Source: a virus
IMG/VR virus record: IMGVR_UViG_3300037140_000070
Span: 1 to 44,241 of that record
Direction: 5' to 3' (one strand)
Length of the DNA: 44,241 bases
Shown: piece after piece, positions 2,668 through 32,680 of the stretch
Layout: every line of letters begins with the position of its first letter
Position numbering within the stretch: the first letter of the stretch is position 1
Notes under the pieces: model-generated
Database searches by the model: none
Told to the model about the DNA's origin: nothing
What the model saw: the letters and a program-made list of their open reading frames with translations, nothing else
Program-made: the position numbers and the translations under genes

Positions 2668-2820
2668 TATTTCTTTGCTCGCCTTAAGCGCAATTCTTAC
2701 TCTGTTTCCTGCTATCTCGATCACTTCAATAATTAATTCACCATTGTTTATGATAAGCGTCTCGCCAACTTTGCGAGACGTTATCAATCCACCGATTTTC
2801 GACTTATTACTAAACTTCAC
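2632..2820 (-). CDS. csrA: CsrA/RsmA-family RNA-binding regulator
   Basis: A 62-residue CsrA homologue. It contains the CsrA core: LITSRKVGETLII (family L-x-R-(R/K)-VGE), a central IEVIEIAGNRVRIAL and the KEISIRRGE segment. In the last, the second Arg aligns with the RNA-contacting Arg44 of E. coli CsrA; the following Glu45 is replaced by Gly. CsrA dimers bind GGA-containing hairpins in mRNA leaders and alter translation or stability. The start is GTG at 2820, overlapping the fibre stop as GTGA, which adds about 10 residues before the usual first strand. A TTG further in would give a near-canonical length. It is the last gene of the late operon, so it is probably made late. Confidence 0.85.
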   Translation of the reverse strand: MKFSNKSKIGGLITSRKVGETLIINNGELIIEVIEIAGNRVRIALKASKEISIRRGETSGPL

Positions 2821-4571
2821 TGCTGATAGCTTATCTGGACTGAATCAACCAACCCTTGACCAACCATAAAAGGGCCTATTGATGCGTATGCCGGTCCAAT
2901 ATAAACCGGGTAAGTTGTACCAGGGACCACAGTCAAAGTCTGCATTGCAATCGTAGGAACCACCGCAGGAAGCAATCCACCGACAACAAGAACTGGAGAG
3001 CTAAAAGCTGCTGTTGTGGTATTGTTTCCGACAGCTCCAAATAAATTTGACCCCCAGGCGTAAAGCTGACCCTGATTTGTAACTCCAAGAGCTAAAGACC
3101 CACCGGATAAAATGTTTCCGCCTATATTTAAAGACAATGCAGACCAAACCAAACCACCAAGGACCAGGGTCGGAGAGCTTCGAGCCGATGTTGTCCCGTC
3201 ACCAAGCTGGCCGCTGGCATTTGTTCCCCATCCATACAATTGACCAGTTGTTGAAAGCCCATATTGAGTTATTATCCCCTGTCCTCCGCTATCAGAATTA
3301 GACCAATATTGAGCCCATTGAACCCCGCCAGAAACAAGAGTCGGAGAGCTTCGAGTTGAAATTGTTCCATCGCCGATCTGACCGCTTGCATTTGTTCCCC
3401 AAGAATAAAGAGCGCCTCCGATTGTCAAAGCAAAAGTATTGTTTAAATTCATAAAACATGAAGCCCATTGCAATCCACCAGGAACCAAAGTCGGAGAGCT
3501 GTAAGCTGACGTTTGAGTTCCGACACCTATGTTATAACTATTTGCTGCGTTAGCGCCCCAACCATACATTTTTCCGGTTGTAGTTATGCCCGTCACTGAT
3601 CCGTTATAATAAGCAACAGAAGACCACACAAGGCCGCCACCAACCAGAACTGGAGAGCTTCGTTTTGTTACTGTTCCGTCACCAAGCTGACCGAAAGTAT
3701 TAGAACCCCAGGCATATAGCGCCCCGGTTGTTGTGATTCCAAAGGTTGAAATTCCGTCACCTACAACGACAGAAAATAATAAACCACCAAGGACCAGGGT
3801 CGGAGAGCTTCGAGCCGATGTTGTCCCGTCACCAAGCTGGCCATTTGAATTAACGCCCCAGGCGTAAAGAGCGCCTGCGGTATTTATTGCATAGGCGTCT
3901 GGTTGAGCACCAGCCAACATAAACGAAGCCCAAGTTTGTCCACCAGAAACCAAATTCGGAGAACTAACGGCTAAGTTTCCAGTCGTTCCCAAAATTCCAC
4001 CTGTAGCGGCCCCCCAAGAGTAGAGCGCCCCGGTTGTTGTAAGCCCCATTAGCATATTTACGTTTCCCGAGTTAGCGGAACCAAGAGACCACTGCAAAGC
4101 AAGCCATTGAAGTCCACCAGGAACCAGCATAGGAGAAGATCTAGTTGATGTTGTCCCGTCGCCAAGCTGGCCATTTCCATTAATGCCCCAGGCGTAAAGA
4201 TTTCCATTTGTTGTTATTCCGTACTGACTCGGCCCAGATCCGTACATTCCTATCATTTGAGACCAAACCAACCCACCAGACGCCAATGAAGGTGAGCTTT
4301 TACTTACTACTGTTGCGTCTCCAAGACTTGCAAAAGCATTTGAACCCCAAGAGTAGAGCCTGCCTTGTGTGTCTATAGCAGTTGCTTGCATTGAGTTCTG
4401 GTCAAATGTCTTTGGCGTAGTTGGAACCGTGACGGAAATTTGAGTTACACCAGGCGGGCAAACAAATTGCCCAGCGATATTATTAGTTAAACTATTAGCC
4501 CAATTTTGACCTGCAACTTGGATATTAGGAATCTTTTGAATCTTGAAAATTTGCGTTACATTGTTCGCCAT
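2817..4571 (-). CDS. RCC1-repeat tail fibre / receptor-binding protein
   Basis: A 584-residue protein with about nine RCC1-type repeats (pattern LYAWGxNxxGQLGDGT...RSSPTLVxGG). These are predicted to form a beta-propeller-like domain over residues ~60-550, with a short non-repeat C-terminus. Being the last virion gene after gpI and another fibre, it is probably a distal fibre or receptor-binding protein. ATG 4571 is chosen because it lies just after the upstream TAA (4573-4575) and has GGTGGGG about 4 nt upstream; an upstream in-frame ATG at 4601 would add 10 residues. Repeats are also similar at DNA level, with one identical 62-nt pair. Confidence 0.75.
   Translation of the reverse strand: MANNVTQIFKIQKIPNIQVAGQNWANSLTNNIAGQFVCPPGVTQISVTVPTTPKTFDQNSMQATAIDTQGRLYSWGSNAFASLGDATVVSKSSPSLASGGLVWSQMIGMYGSGPSQYGITTNGNLYAWGINGNGQLGDGTTSTRSSPMLVPGGLQWLALQWSLGSANSGNVNMLMGLTTTGALYSWGAATGGILGTTGNLAVSSPNLVSGGQTWASFMLAGAQPDAYAINTAGALYAWGVNSNGQLGDGTTSARSSPTLVLGGLLFSVVVGDGISTFGITTTGALYAWGSNTFGQLGDGTVTKRSSPVLVGGGLVWSSVAYYNGSVTGITTTGKMYGWGANAANSYNIGVGTQTSAYSSPTLVPGGLQWASCFMNLNNTFALTIGGALYSWGTNASGQIGDGTISTRSSPTLVSGGVQWAQYWSNSDSGGQGIITQYGLSTTGQLYGWGTNASGQLGDGTTSARSSPTLVLGGLVWSALSLNIGGNILSGGSLALGVTNQGQLYAWGSNLFGAVGNNTTTAAFSSPVLVVGGLLPAVVPTIAMQTLTVVPGTTYPVYIGPAYASIGPFMVGQGLVDSVQISYQQ
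3151..3212. repeat. 62-nt exact direct repeat, copy 1 (inside RCC1 fibre gene)
   Basis: Identical over 62 nt to 3781-3842. It encodes the ...GQLGDGTTSARSSPTLVLGGL portion of one propeller repeat. Flanking bases differ, so the identity has clear edges. Confidence 0.9.
3781..3842. repeat. 62-nt exact direct repeat, copy 2 (inside RCC1 fibre gene)
   Basis: Second copy of the 62-nt identical segment, 630 nt from the first, an exact multiple of three. Recombination between copies would delete or add 210 residues in frame. Other repeats in the gene are diverged versions. Confidence 0.9.
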
Positions 4572-4572
4572 A

Positions 4573-5565
4573 TTACCCCACCACGTTCCAGTTTGTGCCA
4601 TCGCTCATGAATTGCCAATGACCATAGTTAGCCGCTAAATTCAAATCAGCAGCGGTATTATTTATTTTCTCAGCCGCATTTCTGTGCATCGTTATATTGT
4701 TAATATTCGTATATCCACCAACATCAACAACCACAAAGAGAAAGTTTTTAGTCGGAGCAGGAAGGTTGAACTGAAATGGACCCGTAGAAGTGTCAACATA
4801 GAAAACTTTCGCATTGTCGCCAGTTCCAACAACCAAAGACAGAGCATAAGGCGAATTTGAATTATTAACCGCAACTTGATGTTCAGTAGCATTGTCAAGT
4901 TGATCCAATTGCAATTGGACAGTCGCCCCGGTGGCAATGTTGTGATTCGTATTTGCCGCCGAAGTCGCAGAAGCTGGAACCCCTAGAAAAGTTCTTACGT
5001 CGGTTACAGATCCGGCCCCAGACATTCCAGCGGAAGATCCAAGATTCAAAATCTGACAGATTCCAATGTTTCCGGCAGGTAGCGAAGGAGCAACAGGAAC
5101 CGCCCCAGGCGTCCCAGGCGTAACAACCAGCGTGTAAGAGTCTTGAGCCACCTTGTTGACCGTAGTAAGCGCCACAGGGCCAACGCCGCCCGTTTTGACG
5201 TACCTTGAAGCTGTTGCGGTAACAGCCAAGAGATTTGGGGCCAGGGAGACCAGATCAATTCTATTGTTTGCGTTTGTATTGGCAACAATCACACCAGCGA
5301 TTGCGCTTAATGCCAGAATCATTTCATTTTTAGGAGTGAAGCCAGTATTTCCGCTGTTGTAAAAAAATCCACAACCGGCGGCCAAACTGAAAGCAAACTG
5401 GCTAACATACGAACCTTTGAAACTCCCATTTAAAACTCCACTCGCAGGAGTCCCAAACATATTATACAAAATATTGTCCTGTATCCCTTGCTGGACTGCG
5501 AACTGAAGATTGTTCATGTCCACAGAGTCGATTTTTTCGTACTGATTTAAAATTAGCTGTTGCAT
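4573..5565 (-). CDS. Tail fibre / collar-type structural protein
   Basis: A 330-residue beta-rich protein. The N-terminal part (about 1-110) looks like a baseplate-attaching domain, and residues ~110-200 are Val/Thr/Pro-rich. The C-terminus (NNITMHRNAAEKI...YGHWQFMSDGTNWNVVG) matches the common phage fibre ending in which a small beta-domain closes with 'SDGTNWxvv'. Position directly after gpI fits a proximal tail fibre. Initiated at ATG 5565; a 9-nt gap separates it from the gpI gene, with a GGGAG ribosome site. Confidence 0.7.
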   Translation of the reverse strand: MQQLILNQYEKIDSVDMNNLQFAVQQGIQDNILYNMFGTPASGVLNGSFKGSYVSQFAFSLAAGCGFFYNSGNTGFTPKNEMILALSAIAGVIVANTNANNRIDLVSLAPNLLAVTATASRYVKTGGVGPVALTTVNKVAQDSYTLVVTPGTPGAVPVAPSLPAGNIGICQILNLGSSAGMSGAGSVTDVRTFLGVPASATSAANTNHNIATGATVQLQLDQLDNATEHQVAVNNSNSPYALSLVVGTGDNAKVFYVDTSTGPFQFNLPAPTKNFLFVVVDVGGYTNINNITMHRNAAEKINNTAADLNLAANYGHWQFMSDGTNWNVVG

Positions 5566-29252: not shown

Positions 29253-29281
29253 TGATTAACTAGGACATACTTTTGACGCTT
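29253..29281. promoter_or_regulatory. Shared bipartite motif, site B (upstream of terS)
   Basis: Core AGGACATACTTTTGACGC. It differs from site A in only 3 of 29 positions. A second, weaker copy (AGGACAAAAGTTTGAT, 29241-29256) precedes it at a 21-nt period, two helical turns. It overlaps the stop codon of the HNH gene (29280-29282) and lies 26-54 nt upstream of terS. Presumed promoter or operator of the terminase operon. Confidence 0.6.
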
Positions 29282-29924
29282 AAGGTTTCCCCTCGGGAAT
29301 CTTTTGTTCTTGTTCGTCTATTTGCTCTTTCCCTTCAGGAGTGTTCTTATCCCCACAGATACGCTCACACTGAAATTTAGATCTAGACTTGGCAGAAGGC
29401 CTTCTCTCTGGGGATACACCGCACTCAAGTCGAATGTGGTCCAAGTGTTTCCAGTGCCAACCACGCGCTATGCCCTTGGCCGTACCAGCTGCTATCTTAT
29501 ATTCTTTTCCTACTTCTGAAAACTTTCTACCAAGCGATATTGACTTTATAATTTCTATTGCCTGCTTATCCGTTAATTTACACCCTGAGGCCATCTCTCC
29601 CGTTCGCTGCCTTCTAAGGCCCGTTCTGTGTGCATGAGCCATATTGTGACTGTGGTTAGATTTCTCAAGATTAGAGACGGCGTTGTTTAGCTTGTTGCCA
29701 TCAATATGGTTTACAATTTCAGAATCTTTAATTATCCCGAAGGCCTCTGCCACCATTCTGTGAAGTAAAAGGCTTTTTTTGCCATAGTGAATGTTAAGGT
29801 ATTGGCAGGTCCCAGTTCTTTTTGGATTAAGAATCTTCCATGTACCCGAATAATTAGACCTGATTCTGCCAAGACTAGAGACATCGTATCTCTCATTAAA
29901 GGATCTCCATTCTTCATTTTCCAC
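29280..29924 (-). CDS. HNH homing-type endonuclease (NUMOD4-HNH)
   Basis: A 214-residue free-standing HNH endonuclease. NUMOD4-like start (EEWRSF...YDVSSLGRIRSN), then the HNH core 'LLLHRMVAEAFG', 'VNHIDGNKLNNAVSNLE', 'NHSHNMAHAHRTG'; a C-terminal DNA-binding part follows (KLTDKQAIEIIKS, SEVGKEYKIAAGTAKGIARGWHW, AP2/NUMOD1-like). The start is GTG 29924, with GAGG 6 nt upstream, overlapping the previous stop; the frame further upstream is out of register with the family. It lies immediately upstream of terS, a common niche for such genes. Confidence 0.82.
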   Translation of the reverse strand: MENEEWRSFNERYDVSSLGRIRSNYSGTWKILNPKRTGTCQYLNIHYGKKSLLLHRMVAEAFGIIKDSEIVNHIDGNKLNNAVSNLEKSNHSHNMAHAHRTGLRRQRTGEMASGCKLTDKQAIEIIKSISLGRKFSEVGKEYKIAAGTAKGIARGWHWKHLDHIRLECGVSPERRPSAKSRSKFQCERICGDKNTPEGKEQIDEQEQKIPEGKP

Positions 29925-30273
29925 ACAGTACCTCACACTCGGCGATGGCTTCACTTGAAATAACGTATGTTTGCGTAGAATCAGGATAAGTATCCATGAA
30001 AAACGCCAAGGCCTTCTGCTGCACCTCAAGCACCTTAAGCAGTTTGGGGAGTTCGTTGGCGGCGGATGCAAAATACTCAAGGTCATGTTCGAAAGAAGCT
30101 CTACAAACCTTGCCTCTTTGAATCTCTTCAGTTTCTGGCTCAAGTATCTGGAACCATCTGCAAAAAGGACCTCGTATTGTTCTGTCATGTGTGTGCACGT
30201 ACCACGATACAACTGGAGTCGACTTAGATTTCGCCTCCCTCAACGCTTGAATCAAAGTTTGAAGTGCGGTCAT
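29914..30273 (-). CDS. Hypothetical early protein
   Basis: A 119-residue protein with a helical pattern 'ASAANELPKLLKVLEVQQKALAFFMD' resembling small phage proteins of unknown role. Start 30273 overlaps the upstream stop as ATGA; the in-frame ATG at 30306 adds MQGTRSVQGDE. Its stop overlaps the HNH start region. Confidence 0.5.
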   Translation of the reverse strand: MTALQTLIQALREAKSKSTPVVSWYVHTHDRTIRGPFCRWFQILEPETEEIQRGKVCRASFEHDLEYFASAANELPKLLKVLEVQQKALAFFMDTYPDSTQTYVISSEAIAECEVLCGK

Positions 30274-30549: not shown

Positions 30550-30984
30550 TCATACCTTTTTCCACCAATACCAAAGCAGGCCCAACAGAAACGGATGAAA
30601 TCCGTTTGCAAGCATTTCTTGGAAAGCCTTCTCTTTGGTCCATCCGAATATCTTGACGCGAACAATACCCAAGACCAGGCCGGTGCGATCTTCTCCATGC
30701 TCGCAATGGACAAAAGTCGGTATCTGACTAATGCCGCTTATGAATAATGAATCTTGAATCACTTTCATGTTTGCATCACTCGGAGCCCAGAAACCAGACA
30801 GCGGAATGTAGTCCAATTGAATCCCAAGAGATTTACACCACGCGATTTCATCCGAAGATTGATCTGAATTTAGCTTTATGATCTTTTTAATTCCAATATG
30901 CGCCAATTGAACCATATCAGCTTGAACTAGCGGCTGACCACCGCGCCATAGATTACTTGTGACCTTTATGAAATCATTTATCAT
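30550..30984 (-). CDS. Siw14/dual-specificity-type phosphatase
   Basis: A 144-residue cysteine phosphatase. N-terminal 'SNLWRGGQP' and 'LAHIGIKKIIKLNSD' match the Siw14/PFA-DSP layout. The active-site loop is VHCEHGEDRTG: Cys nucleophile and Arg in the H-C-X5-R-T form; the acid could be the Asp in this loop or elsewhere. Such enzymes hydrolyse inositol pyrophosphate or other phosphoesters. Start 30984 overlaps the GT21-like stop as ATGA, implying coupled synthesis. Substrate unknown; a lipid or sugar phosphate linked to the neighbour is possible. Confidence 0.8.
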   Translation of the reverse strand: MINDFIKVTSNLWRGGQPLVQADMVQLAHIGIKKIIKLNSDQSSDEIAWCKSLGIQLDYIPLSGFWAPSDANMKVIQDSLFISGISQIPTFVHCEHGEDRTGLVLGIVRVKIFGWTKEKAFQEMLANGFHPFLLGLLWYWWKKV

Positions 30985-32102
30985 GGCATTAGCTCCTTTG
31001 TGCATTTGCCTTCTCTATTTACTCTATATATAGACCCGCGCCACTTAACCGTATTACCAAGCAACGAAACGAACCAAATCGGCAACATTAGCCACTCACT
31101 AACAACATAAGCGAGAAACGACATTCGTCCGCCGACTTTACGAATCATTCTGATTTCAATATACGTCCAAAGCGTTTGGATTATCACAGCAGACCACCAT
31201 GGCATGATAAACATGCACAACATGGAACAAACCGTGAAATATGTTAGCGGCTCTAACATAAAGATCCATGGCGCGTGCGCTTTGCGCATCCTCGACCATC
31301 TTACGTTACGATTAAATACTTCGCGAAACGAAGTCCATCCAATTGGTTGCTGGACTGGAATACTCATTACCTTTGTGCGCAGTCCTGTTGCACTTATGAA
31401 CTTACCAATGTTGTAATCTTCCGCCATGAACGAACCAACCAATAATAATCCGCCGCATGTCTCAAGTGCAGACTTTCGAAACATCATCGACTTACCAAGC
31501 ACAATTGATTCATTAATAGAATTAAGCACAAGCAACCACTTGTTATAGAAACGATGAATTAACATTGCTTCAATCTCTGCTGCTAGTCCGTTCATCTTGG
31601 TACAACACAATGTCGACGTTAAAACGCCGCATCCATCTTTGAACTCATTGTCGAGTATATTTAGATAATTGGATGGCAATTGCACATTGCTGTCACTAAT
31701 TAGAATCAAGTCGTTATTTGCGTTCATGTATGCTGCAAGTATGTTGCTGACCTTTGGATTCAAGTTCGTCTTTGACTGAGCAACGTATTTCTTTGCTGGG
31801 ACATGCGGAAACATGAAAATAAACCGATCAACGTACTTGTGAGCTGGATCGGTAAAGCTATCAAGACAGAAAATCAATTCATCACGCTTGCCTTTGTCGT
31901 AACCAAGCATCCAATCCAAACCAGCTAAAGACTCCAAATTGTACCAAAGGCTGTAATCAATCCCCTTGCAAGGCTTTAGGACAGTGATAGGTCTTTGACG
32001 GCCCGGCTTTCGATTGCGGCCCACAAGGCGTTTTTGCGCCAATACGGTGGCATAAATCGTTAGGGCCAAACCGAGGAAAACGATTAGGTTCAAAATGATC
32101 AC
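30981..32102 (-). CDS. Membrane glycosyltransferase, GT21-like (ceramide glucosyltransferase/HpnI type)
   Basis: A 373-residue enzyme with a N-terminal membrane helix (IILNLIVFLGLALTIYATVLA), a catalytic domain, and C-terminal hydrophobic segments (LTYFTVCSMLCMFIMPWW; LAYVVSEWLMLPIWFVSLLG). GT21 features are seen in order: ITVLKPCKGIDYSLWYNLESL; a DPAH region; NPKVSN; the D1-type LISDSNVQLP; GKSMMFRKSALETCGGLLL; EDYNIGKFI; and the (R/Q)xxRW motif as RNVRWSRMRK. Family members use UDP-glucose or GlcNAc with ceramide or hopanoid acceptors. Coupled to the phosphatase by ATGA. Confidence 0.85.
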   Translation of the reverse strand: MIILNLIVFLGLALTIYATVLAQKRLVGRNRKPGRQRPITVLKPCKGIDYSLWYNLESLAGLDWMLGYDKGKRDELIFCLDSFTDPAHKYVDRFIFMFPHVPAKKYVAQSKTNLNPKVSNILAAYMNANNDLILISDSNVQLPSNYLNILDNEFKDGCGVLTSTLCCTKMNGLAAEIEAMLIHRFYNKWLLVLNSINESIVLGKSMMFRKSALETCGGLLLVGSFMAEDYNIGKFISATGLRTKVMSIPVQQPIGWTSFREVFNRNVRWSRMRKAHAPWIFMLEPLTYFTVCSMLCMFIMPWWSAVIIQTLWTYIEIRMIRKVGGRMSFLAYVVSEWLMLPIWFVSLLGNTVKWRGSIYRVNREGKCTKELMP

Positions 32103-32341
32103 TTTCGGCCCACAGGCATAAACGCTTTATCAGCTACCCGGCCAATGTAAGACTTGGCATTATCGTCATTAGACCCACCAGTGACAAACAGCTCGAAGAA
32201 GTCAGAACCGTTAGCATCAACCGATGAAATCACTCTTACGCCACAATTACGCGCTTTAGCGTGTACGACCTGTCCTTTCTCTCCACCGCTTATGCCTTGA
32301 GTAGAATGTCTGAAATTAGTAGCAGAACAATAGAACCTCAT
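32099..32341 (-). CDS. Hypothetical 80-aa protein upstream of GT21
   Basis: An 80-residue basic protein with 'GGEKGQVVHAKARNCGVRVISSVDANGSDFFELFVTGGSNDDNAKSYIGRV', a compact beta-rich pattern. First gene of the accessory operon; overlaps GT21 by 4 nt. The frame upstream is closed by an intergenic region with weak motif site E. Unknown function. Confidence 0.55.
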   Translation of the reverse strand: MRFYCSATNFRHSTQGISGGEKGQVVHAKARNCGVRVISSVDANGSDFFELFVTGGSNDDNAKSYIGRVADKAFMPVGRK

Positions 32342-32410: not shown

Positions 32411-32680
32411 CAGAGGTAACAACGTGTTACCTGTTTGTTACCTGTTTGTTACCTAGCTATCTTATTAATATATATATATAATATATAATATAATAAGAAT
32501 AAGTAACAAGGTAACATATATTCATGAACGTCATGAGGGCTTATTTATTTCTAAATAAAAAAAAGACCCTTAACGGGCCTCTATACTTTCTGATTTTTGT
32601 TACCTTTGTTACCTGGACTTAACTATATGATATTATTGATATTGACATTTGCGCAAAGGTAACAACGGTTTTGTTACCTT
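32411..32680. other. Candidate replication origin: GTTACC repeats flanking an AT-rich core
   Basis: Non-coding, 270 nt. GTTACC occurs nine times (both orientations): 32415(rev), 32426, 32437, 32448, 32510(rev), 32599, 32608, 32658(rev), 32673. Three direct copies are spaced exactly 11 nt (GTTACCTGTTT unit). Between them lies an A/T-only run of about 30 nt (TATATATATAATATATAATA and neighbours). Directly after the primase/helicase gene. Iterons plus an AT-rich melting region next to a replication gene is a classical origin layout; also possible as a transcription-control region. Confidence 0.6.
32556..32580 (-). terminator. Rho-independent terminator of the replication operon
   Basis: On the minus strand: AGGCCC-GTTAA-GGGTCT stem (6 bp, one G-U pair) followed by seven to eight T. 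It lies about 100 nt past the primase/helicase stop, inside the candidate origin. Confidence 0.7.

Follow-up and report, generated by a model that had tools for sequence, protein, structure and literature searches.

Introduction

To our knowledge, those glycosyltransferases of bacteriophages that are understood act on DNA, lipopolysaccharide or O-antigen. Glycosylation of bulk membrane lipids would add a new kind of target for such phage enzymes, and in the open-licence literature we found no paper with both GT21 and bacteriophage. Besides ceramide glucosyltransferase, family GT21 includes the processive diacylglycerol glycosyltransferases Pgt of Mesorhizobium and Agrobacterium, for which diacylglycerol is preferred over ceramide (PMC8231724, PMC3972451).

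The locus studied here lies in a single IMG/VR virus record of 44,241 bases, the whole of which was analyzed and is referred to as the window. A preliminary description had assigned to it a membrane glycosyltransferase with the motifs of ceramide glucosyltransferase and HpnI, joined to a Siw14-type phosphatase. The window encodes a contractile-tailed phage, as evidenced by matches of its terminase, portal, tail sheath and baseplate proteins to PHROGs families, and appears to be a dwarf myovirus. Its tail region also holds an RCC1-repeat (beta-propeller) protein (2817-4601, minus strand; Pfam PF25390, E 2.9e-65), and three tandem genes that resemble this protein by eye were seen in the 175-kb phage G297 (L147 3104-7565).

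Arrangement of the cassette

The following features were defined in the region:

32562..32582, minus strand: terminator-like hairpin with a T-run, between primase and cassette (consensus match only)
32099..32341, minus strand: 80-aa open reading frame, first gene of the coupled unit, with a GTGA overlap with the GT21 gene and the Shine-Dalgarno-like AAGGGGGT
30981..32102, minus strand: GT21 membrane glycosyltransferase, 373 aa, GTG start, assigned from PF13506, the match to 26qf, the alignment and an AlphaFold2 model
30550..30984, minus strand: atypical dual-specificity phosphatase (DSP), 144 aa, P-loop HCEHGEDRTG, with an ATGA overlap with the GT21 stop

Coordinates, strand and motifs of the glycosyltransferase and phosphatase genes agree with the preliminary description. 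The GTG start of the glycosyltransferase at 32102 overlaps the stop of the 80-aa frame (GTGA), so that the coupled unit comprises at least three genes. At its other end, the TGA stop overlaps the phosphatase ATG at 30984, an ATGA overlap that had been noted before and that is preceded by a Shine-Dalgarno-like AAAGGAG. The phosphatase frame as listed opens at 31005 and would yield 151 aa, but with AAAGGAG just ahead of ATG 30984 the 144-aa product is more likely. No Pfam match was obtained for the 80-aa protein, and in PHROGs only a weak one to phrog_5927 (E 0.01). The stretch that separates the cassette from the small terminase gene holds an HNH homing endonuclease frame (29280-30212, minus strand; PF13392, phrog_59).

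The gap of 340 bases between the primase gene and the 80-aa frame contains the terminator-like hairpin and a cluster of GGTAACA repeats. Terminator-like sites, scored by consensus match only, number 10 in the region, against 5.4 expected (sd 2.3). GGTAACA occurs 13 times in the window where 3.5 copies are expected, and nine of the 13 fall within 264 bases (32415-32678) that surround an AT-rich tract; they may mark a replication origin, as iterons, or an operator. Promoter-like matches in the gap were no commoner than in shuffled sequence. Given the hairpin and the repeat cluster, the cassette is probably transcribed as a separate unit, and we regard it as an accessory, moron-type gene set.

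A GT21 glycosyltransferase with an intact catalytic set

The Pfam family Glyco_transf_21 (PF13506) covers residues 99-271 of the glycosyltransferase with an E-value of 2.7e-40 and 138.1 bits, against a cut-off of 21.7, and human ceramide glucosyltransferase (PDB 26qf) could be aligned by phmmer to residues 8-366 (E 5e-34). The catalytic set is complete, with D85, D137 (DSNV), D229 (AEDYNIG) and R265-R268-W269 (RNVRW, of the type (Q/R)xxRW), in line with the full motif set reported earlier. Loss of these residues in relatives would have spoken against the assignment; in an alignment of 17 sequences, the window protein and 16 relatives from Bdellovibrionota, the residues of DSNV, AEDY and RxxRW are invariant or nearly so.

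The AlphaFold2 model (mean pLDDT 87) shows an N-terminal membrane helix and C-terminal helices, and together with hydropathy analysis places a GT-A catalytic domain between them. Its best Foldseek neighbors are cellulose synthase (BcsA) and hyaluronan synthases, which are likewise membrane GT-A enzymes. The 26qf entries do not appear among the top 50 Foldseek matches; the Foldseek library probably predates them. Neither the glycosyltransferase nor the phosphatase could be assigned to a PHROGs family. The proposed membrane enzyme of family GT21 is thus borne out by Pfam, by the match to 26qf and by structure prediction, and it is well supported that the phage carries a complete member of this lipid-glycosyltransferase family, apparently active as judged by its intact residues.

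Placement within GT21 and cellular relatives

Among NCBIfam models TIGR03472 (HpnI) fits the protein best (E 3e-53), but its 181 bits stay below the equivalog cut-off of 310, and identity with HpnI was rejected on this basis. In our trees the phage glycosyltransferase falls outside the HpnI clade (100/100) and outside the alphaproteobacterial Pgt crown clade (100/99); it stands beside Bdellovibrionota and human ceramide glucosyltransferase with a support of 88/83 and on a long branch. Sister positions to Pgt or HpnI are not rejected by the AU test (p-AU 0.145), and the sampling of GT21 for relatives and tree centred on Bdellovibrionota and Alphaproteobacteria.

A scan of genome contigs returned, among the matches listed, three Bdellovibrionota first (31-34% identity), ahead of Alphaproteobacteria. 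GT21 matches were found in 29 of 291 Bdellovibrionota genomes, mostly 31-37% identical to the window protein, and among the matches listed this phylum appears to hold its closest cellular relatives. A PHP-domain gene lies upstream of GT21 and overlaps it in most of 30 such stretches, and often GT21 also overlaps a downstream gene of the GH1 beta-glucosidase type. Note that many of these stretches (L104-L131) share a conserved overlapping cassette of PHP phosphoesterase, GT21 and GH1 glycosidase.

Alphaproteobacterial plasmid genes named ceramide glucosyltransferase are 25-29% identical to the window enzyme. They follow a metallophosphoesterase gene annotated as UDP-2,3-diacylglucosamine diphosphatase (LpxH-like), the products of which score below the NCBIfam cut-offs. 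As these GT21 sequences group with those of Mesorhizobium loti, we infer that they are Pgt orthologues. GT21 thus has a phosphoesterase as neighbor in three settings, and the fold differs each time: a metallophosphoesterase in Alphaproteobacteria, a PHP protein in Bdellovibrionota and a DSP in the window; this is a pattern, not proof of function.

The preliminary description had named sphingolipids or hopanoids as acceptors. Glycosylation of a hopanoid by an HpnI-like enzyme would agree with TIGR03472 as the best model and with the survey of the inferred host phylum, where a strong match to hopene cyclase was found in 5 of the 29 GT21-bearing genomes against 12 of the 262 others (Fisher p 0.018), many of them probably incomplete drafts. 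The other 24 GT21-bearing genomes have no strong match, so that most in the phylum show no sign of hopanoids. With a score so far below the HpnI cut-off, plasmid HpnI sequences in a separate clade and no hpn gene among the neighbors of the GT21 gene (primase, 80-aa frame, DSP and HNH endonuclease), we consider a hopanoid acceptor highly improbable. The HpnI score and these 24 genomes make ceramide or diacylglycerol the likely acceptor. The earlier claim stands as far as GT21 is concerned, but its restriction to sphingolipid or hopanoid does not, as the diacylglycerol-preferring Pgt enzymes belong to the same family.

Phage relatives and probable host

The primase of the window is about 44-45% identical to that of Bdellovibrio phage phi1422, a dwarf myovirus (PMC3391216), over 99% of its length, while the next best phage reaches 30%. 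Five further proteins match phi1422 at 29-48%, namely the helicase (48%), an endonuclease (42%), RecE (39%) and two small proteins. For terminase, portal and sheath/tail proteins no blastp match to phi1422 was obtained at E 1e-4, and no match to GT21 or the DSP was found in that phage. As a host marker the terminase is uninformative and gives no pointer to Bdellovibrionota, whereas the primase is informative. With replication genes that match phi1422, but structural genes that do not, a host among the Bdellovibrionota (Bdellovibrio-type predatory bacteria) is likely, as judged by the replication genes. Bdellovibrio bacteriovorus is reported to contain sphingolipids and Bdellovibrio stolpii a sphingophosphonolipid (PMC10626005, PMC6148460), which makes ceramide a possible acceptor.

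The phosphatase

The 144-aa protein contains the HCEHGEDRT loop given in the preliminary description, with C94 and R100, and matches PF03162, the Siw14 family of Pfam (E 3.1e-12; 46.8 bits, cut-off 27), as well as PTP-SAK (E 1.6e-8). Its AlphaFold2 model (pLDDT 92.8) has TpbA as top Foldseek match (TMq 0.81). TpbA is the nearest solved structure by both sequence and fold, followed by plant PFA-DSP1 and Siw14, while PTPMT1, a lipid phosphatase, ranks lower. The basic P-loop residues of Siw14 and PFA-DSP (HCNRGKHRT and HCKRGKHRT) are absent, and the acidic residues found where Siw14 has K and H argue against highly phosphorylated inositols as a substrate. The label Siw14-type is therefore correct at the level of the Pfam family, but in sequence and structure the protein is closer to TpbA. 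By inspection no signal peptide was seen, the protein starting with MINDFIKVTSN and no hydrophobic signal.

Single-sequence scans of IMG/VR with the glycosyltransferase and with the phosphatase gave no match, and alignments were needed as queries. The phosphatase family was then found in 14 viral contigs of up to 230 kb (L154-L167), 13 of them without a detected GT21, although many are fragments; several members have lipoprotein-like N-termini. The family typically shows HCEHGxDRTG, often with a GFHxxLxGL tail, and no PHROGs match was found for two members tested. Two phosphatase matches in INPHARED, both in a record labelled Acinetobacter phage MD-2021a (L153, CAKLQH020000002.1), were not accepted as relatives from phages, for this record carries secA, trpA, accD and folC and looks chromosomal. 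A diverged DSP (HCKSGVDRTG) is also present at 8672-9127 of L002, the contig closest to the window by terminase (74%), in a different position from the window gene. The combination of GT21 and DSP is thus suggestive, not obligate, and the phosphatase is a phage gene that exists independently of GT21 and has been joined to it here.

This raises the question of whether the two genes are unrelated passengers, with the DSP an independent TpbA-like phage phosphatase for protein phosphotyrosine or serine that merely stands behind GT21. The 13 viral contigs without detected GT21, the lipoprotein-like N-termini, the other location in L002 and the proximity to TpbA would all be in line with this. The ATGA overlap, however, speaks against it, as does the presence of both genes in the unrelated 175-kb phage, although phage contigs with GT21 are too few for a significance test. 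We consider independent functions a serious possibility, albeit one that we would rate below even chances.

Occurrence in other phages

The supposed rarity of such enzymes in phages was confirmed, as none of 50,697 isolate phage records in INPHARED has a match to this GT21. When IMG/VR was queried with an alignment of the Bdellovibrionota clade, one more phage emerged, the 175-kb contig G297 (L137) with a GpA-type terminase and a baseplate gene, which also encodes a relative of the window phosphatase (37% identical), 29 kb from its GT21. A third contig of 101 kb, G298 (L103), with terminase and portal, carries an alphaproteobacterial-type GT21 and then a metallophosphoesterase that is 28-32% identical to those preceding the alphaproteobacterial GT21 genes. 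Here, a DSPc phosphatase upstream, GT21 and the LpxH-like metallophosphoesterase lie within 3.5 kb (L103 4429-7889). The combination of a phage GT21 with a phosphatase gene was hence found at least three times, in unrelated phages. Six further IMG/VR contigs (L097-L102) have a rhizobial-type GT21 whose sequences nest with Rhizobiaceae genes, and gave no DSP match; we excluded them, since their GT21 probably belongs to host DNA flanking predicted prophages. What we observed directly is the gene structure, the family membership, the intactness of the catalytic residues and the presence in unrelated phages.

The metallophosphoesterase of G298 and its alphaproteobacterial counterparts also bring up phosphorus salvage. 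Phospholipid-derived diacylglycerol would be converted to glycolipid, as by bacterial lipid-remodelling pairs under phosphate starvation, the phosphatase supplying diacylglycerol (or recovering phosphate), GT21 capping it with a sugar and the phosphate serving phage DNA. Pgt-type enzymes prefer diacylglycerol and a Pho box is predicted for pgt (PMC3972451), and infected cells can turn to phospholipid recycling at low phosphate (PMC12282109). Nevertheless, the window has a DSP instead of a metallophosphoesterase, and we noticed no Pho-type gene in it; its GT21 falls outside the Pgt crown clade, and the alphaproteobacterial phosphoesterases fall short of their models. Phosphorus salvage is the most interesting of the remaining readings, but an unlikely one. 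In its wider form, several unrelated phage lineages would carry a lipid-remodelling pair of GT21 and a phosphatase that replaces phospholipid or phosphosphingolipid with glycolipid and reclaims phosphate, the phosphatase being recruited from different folds, a DSP in the window and G297 and a metallophosphoesterase in G298. We would not expect this generalization to hold; if true, it would be a kind of auxiliary metabolism of which we found no description in the literature.

The five contigs closest to the window in terminase sequence gave no GT21 match. L002 has an unrelated frame upstream of the small terminase gene, and GT21 thus behaves like an accessory gene that can be exchanged. Two frames of L002 (1561-2301 and 4513-5190) look glycosyltransferase-like by eye, the first without a Pfam match. 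Superinfection exclusion, as suggested in the preliminary description, would have a putative new glycolipid hide or alter the receptor or a membrane site of competing phages. A cassette that comes after a terminator-like site, as expected of a moron, and the different glycosyltransferase-like frame (by eye) near the small terminase in L002, which suggests swapping of accessory genes, are compatible with such a role. On the other hand, no lysogeny gene was recognised among the window proteins examined, and GT21 products form on the cytoplasmic leaflet and require flipping to reach the surface. Exclusion is possible, but we deem it quite improbable.

A putative lipid modification

With slightly better than even confidence, we favor a reading in which the GT21 enzyme of a dwarf myovirus with a probable Bdellovibrionota host glycosylates a neutral lipid, the co-translated phosphatase taking part in the same process. 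An intact member of a family that glycosylates membrane lipids, directly coupled to a phosphatase gene, suggests an alteration of host membrane lipids by the virus. From the sequence data, lipid glycosylation by the window enzyme is likely, and so is a neutral lipid acceptor, ceramide or diacylglycerol, in a Bdellovibrionota host. Host, acceptor class and donor are what we infer, as are the part played by the phosphatase and any advantage for the phage.

Situated in the inner membrane, GT21 would take UDP-hexose, probably UDP-glucose, in the cytoplasm and add a beta-linked hexose to a neutral lipid of the host membrane that offers a free primary hydroxyl, presumably ceramide or diacylglycerol and not a hopanoid. 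The phosphatase would most likely take off a phosphate in connection with this reaction, for instance from a lipid phosphate, thus freeing the acceptor, but could also have a protein target. Infected cells would thereby end up with an envelope of altered glycolipid content. The gene of GH1 beta-glucosidase type beside GT21 in Bdellovibrionota is as expected for a beta-hexosyl product. Against this reading count the long branch of the enzyme with its 88/83 placement and p-AU of 0.145, the 13 of 14 DSP contigs without detected GT21, and a terminase that gives no pointer to the proposed host phylum. The locus would make testable whether phages remodel lipids to save phosphate, and what the role of the GT21 gene is in Bdellovibrionota, where its cassette is conserved.

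Comparison with known systems

With Bdellovibrio phage phi1422 the window phage shares a homologous replication module of primase, helicase, endonuclease, RecE and two small proteins, but its structural genes find no match there, and neither do GT21 and the DSP. Its phosphatase has the Cys-based DSP fold and the HCxxGxxRT loop in common with TpbA of Pseudomonas aeruginosa and with Siw14/PFA-DSP, but the loop is acidic (HCEHGEDRT) where Siw14 has HCNRGKHRT and TpbA HCKHGNNRT, and the signal peptide of periplasmic TpbA was not seen on inspection of the window copy.

Of the GT21 systems, HpnI is of the same family and provides the best NCBIfam model, but the window enzyme scores below its equivalog cut-off, belongs to a separate clade and has no hopanoid genes nearby. 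Pgt of Mesorhizobium and Agrobacterium is likewise a GT21 enzyme, and the alphaproteobacterial genes also adjoin a phosphoesterase gene; identity is 26-29%, however, Pgt forms a separate crown clade (100/99), and the partner is a metallophosphoesterase. The GT21 of the PHP-GT21-GH1 cassette in Bdellovibrionota is the closest cellular relative among the matches listed (31-37%) and has the same conserved residues, whereas the phage copy has the DSP next to it in place of a PHP or GH1 neighbor and a 7-residue insertion at about residues 66-72. Ceramide glucosyltransferase (UGCG; PDB 26qf) is distant in sequence from the phage-borne enzyme with its bacterial host, but the two match over nearly their full length and share the D2, D3 and RxxRW motifs and the same membrane layout.
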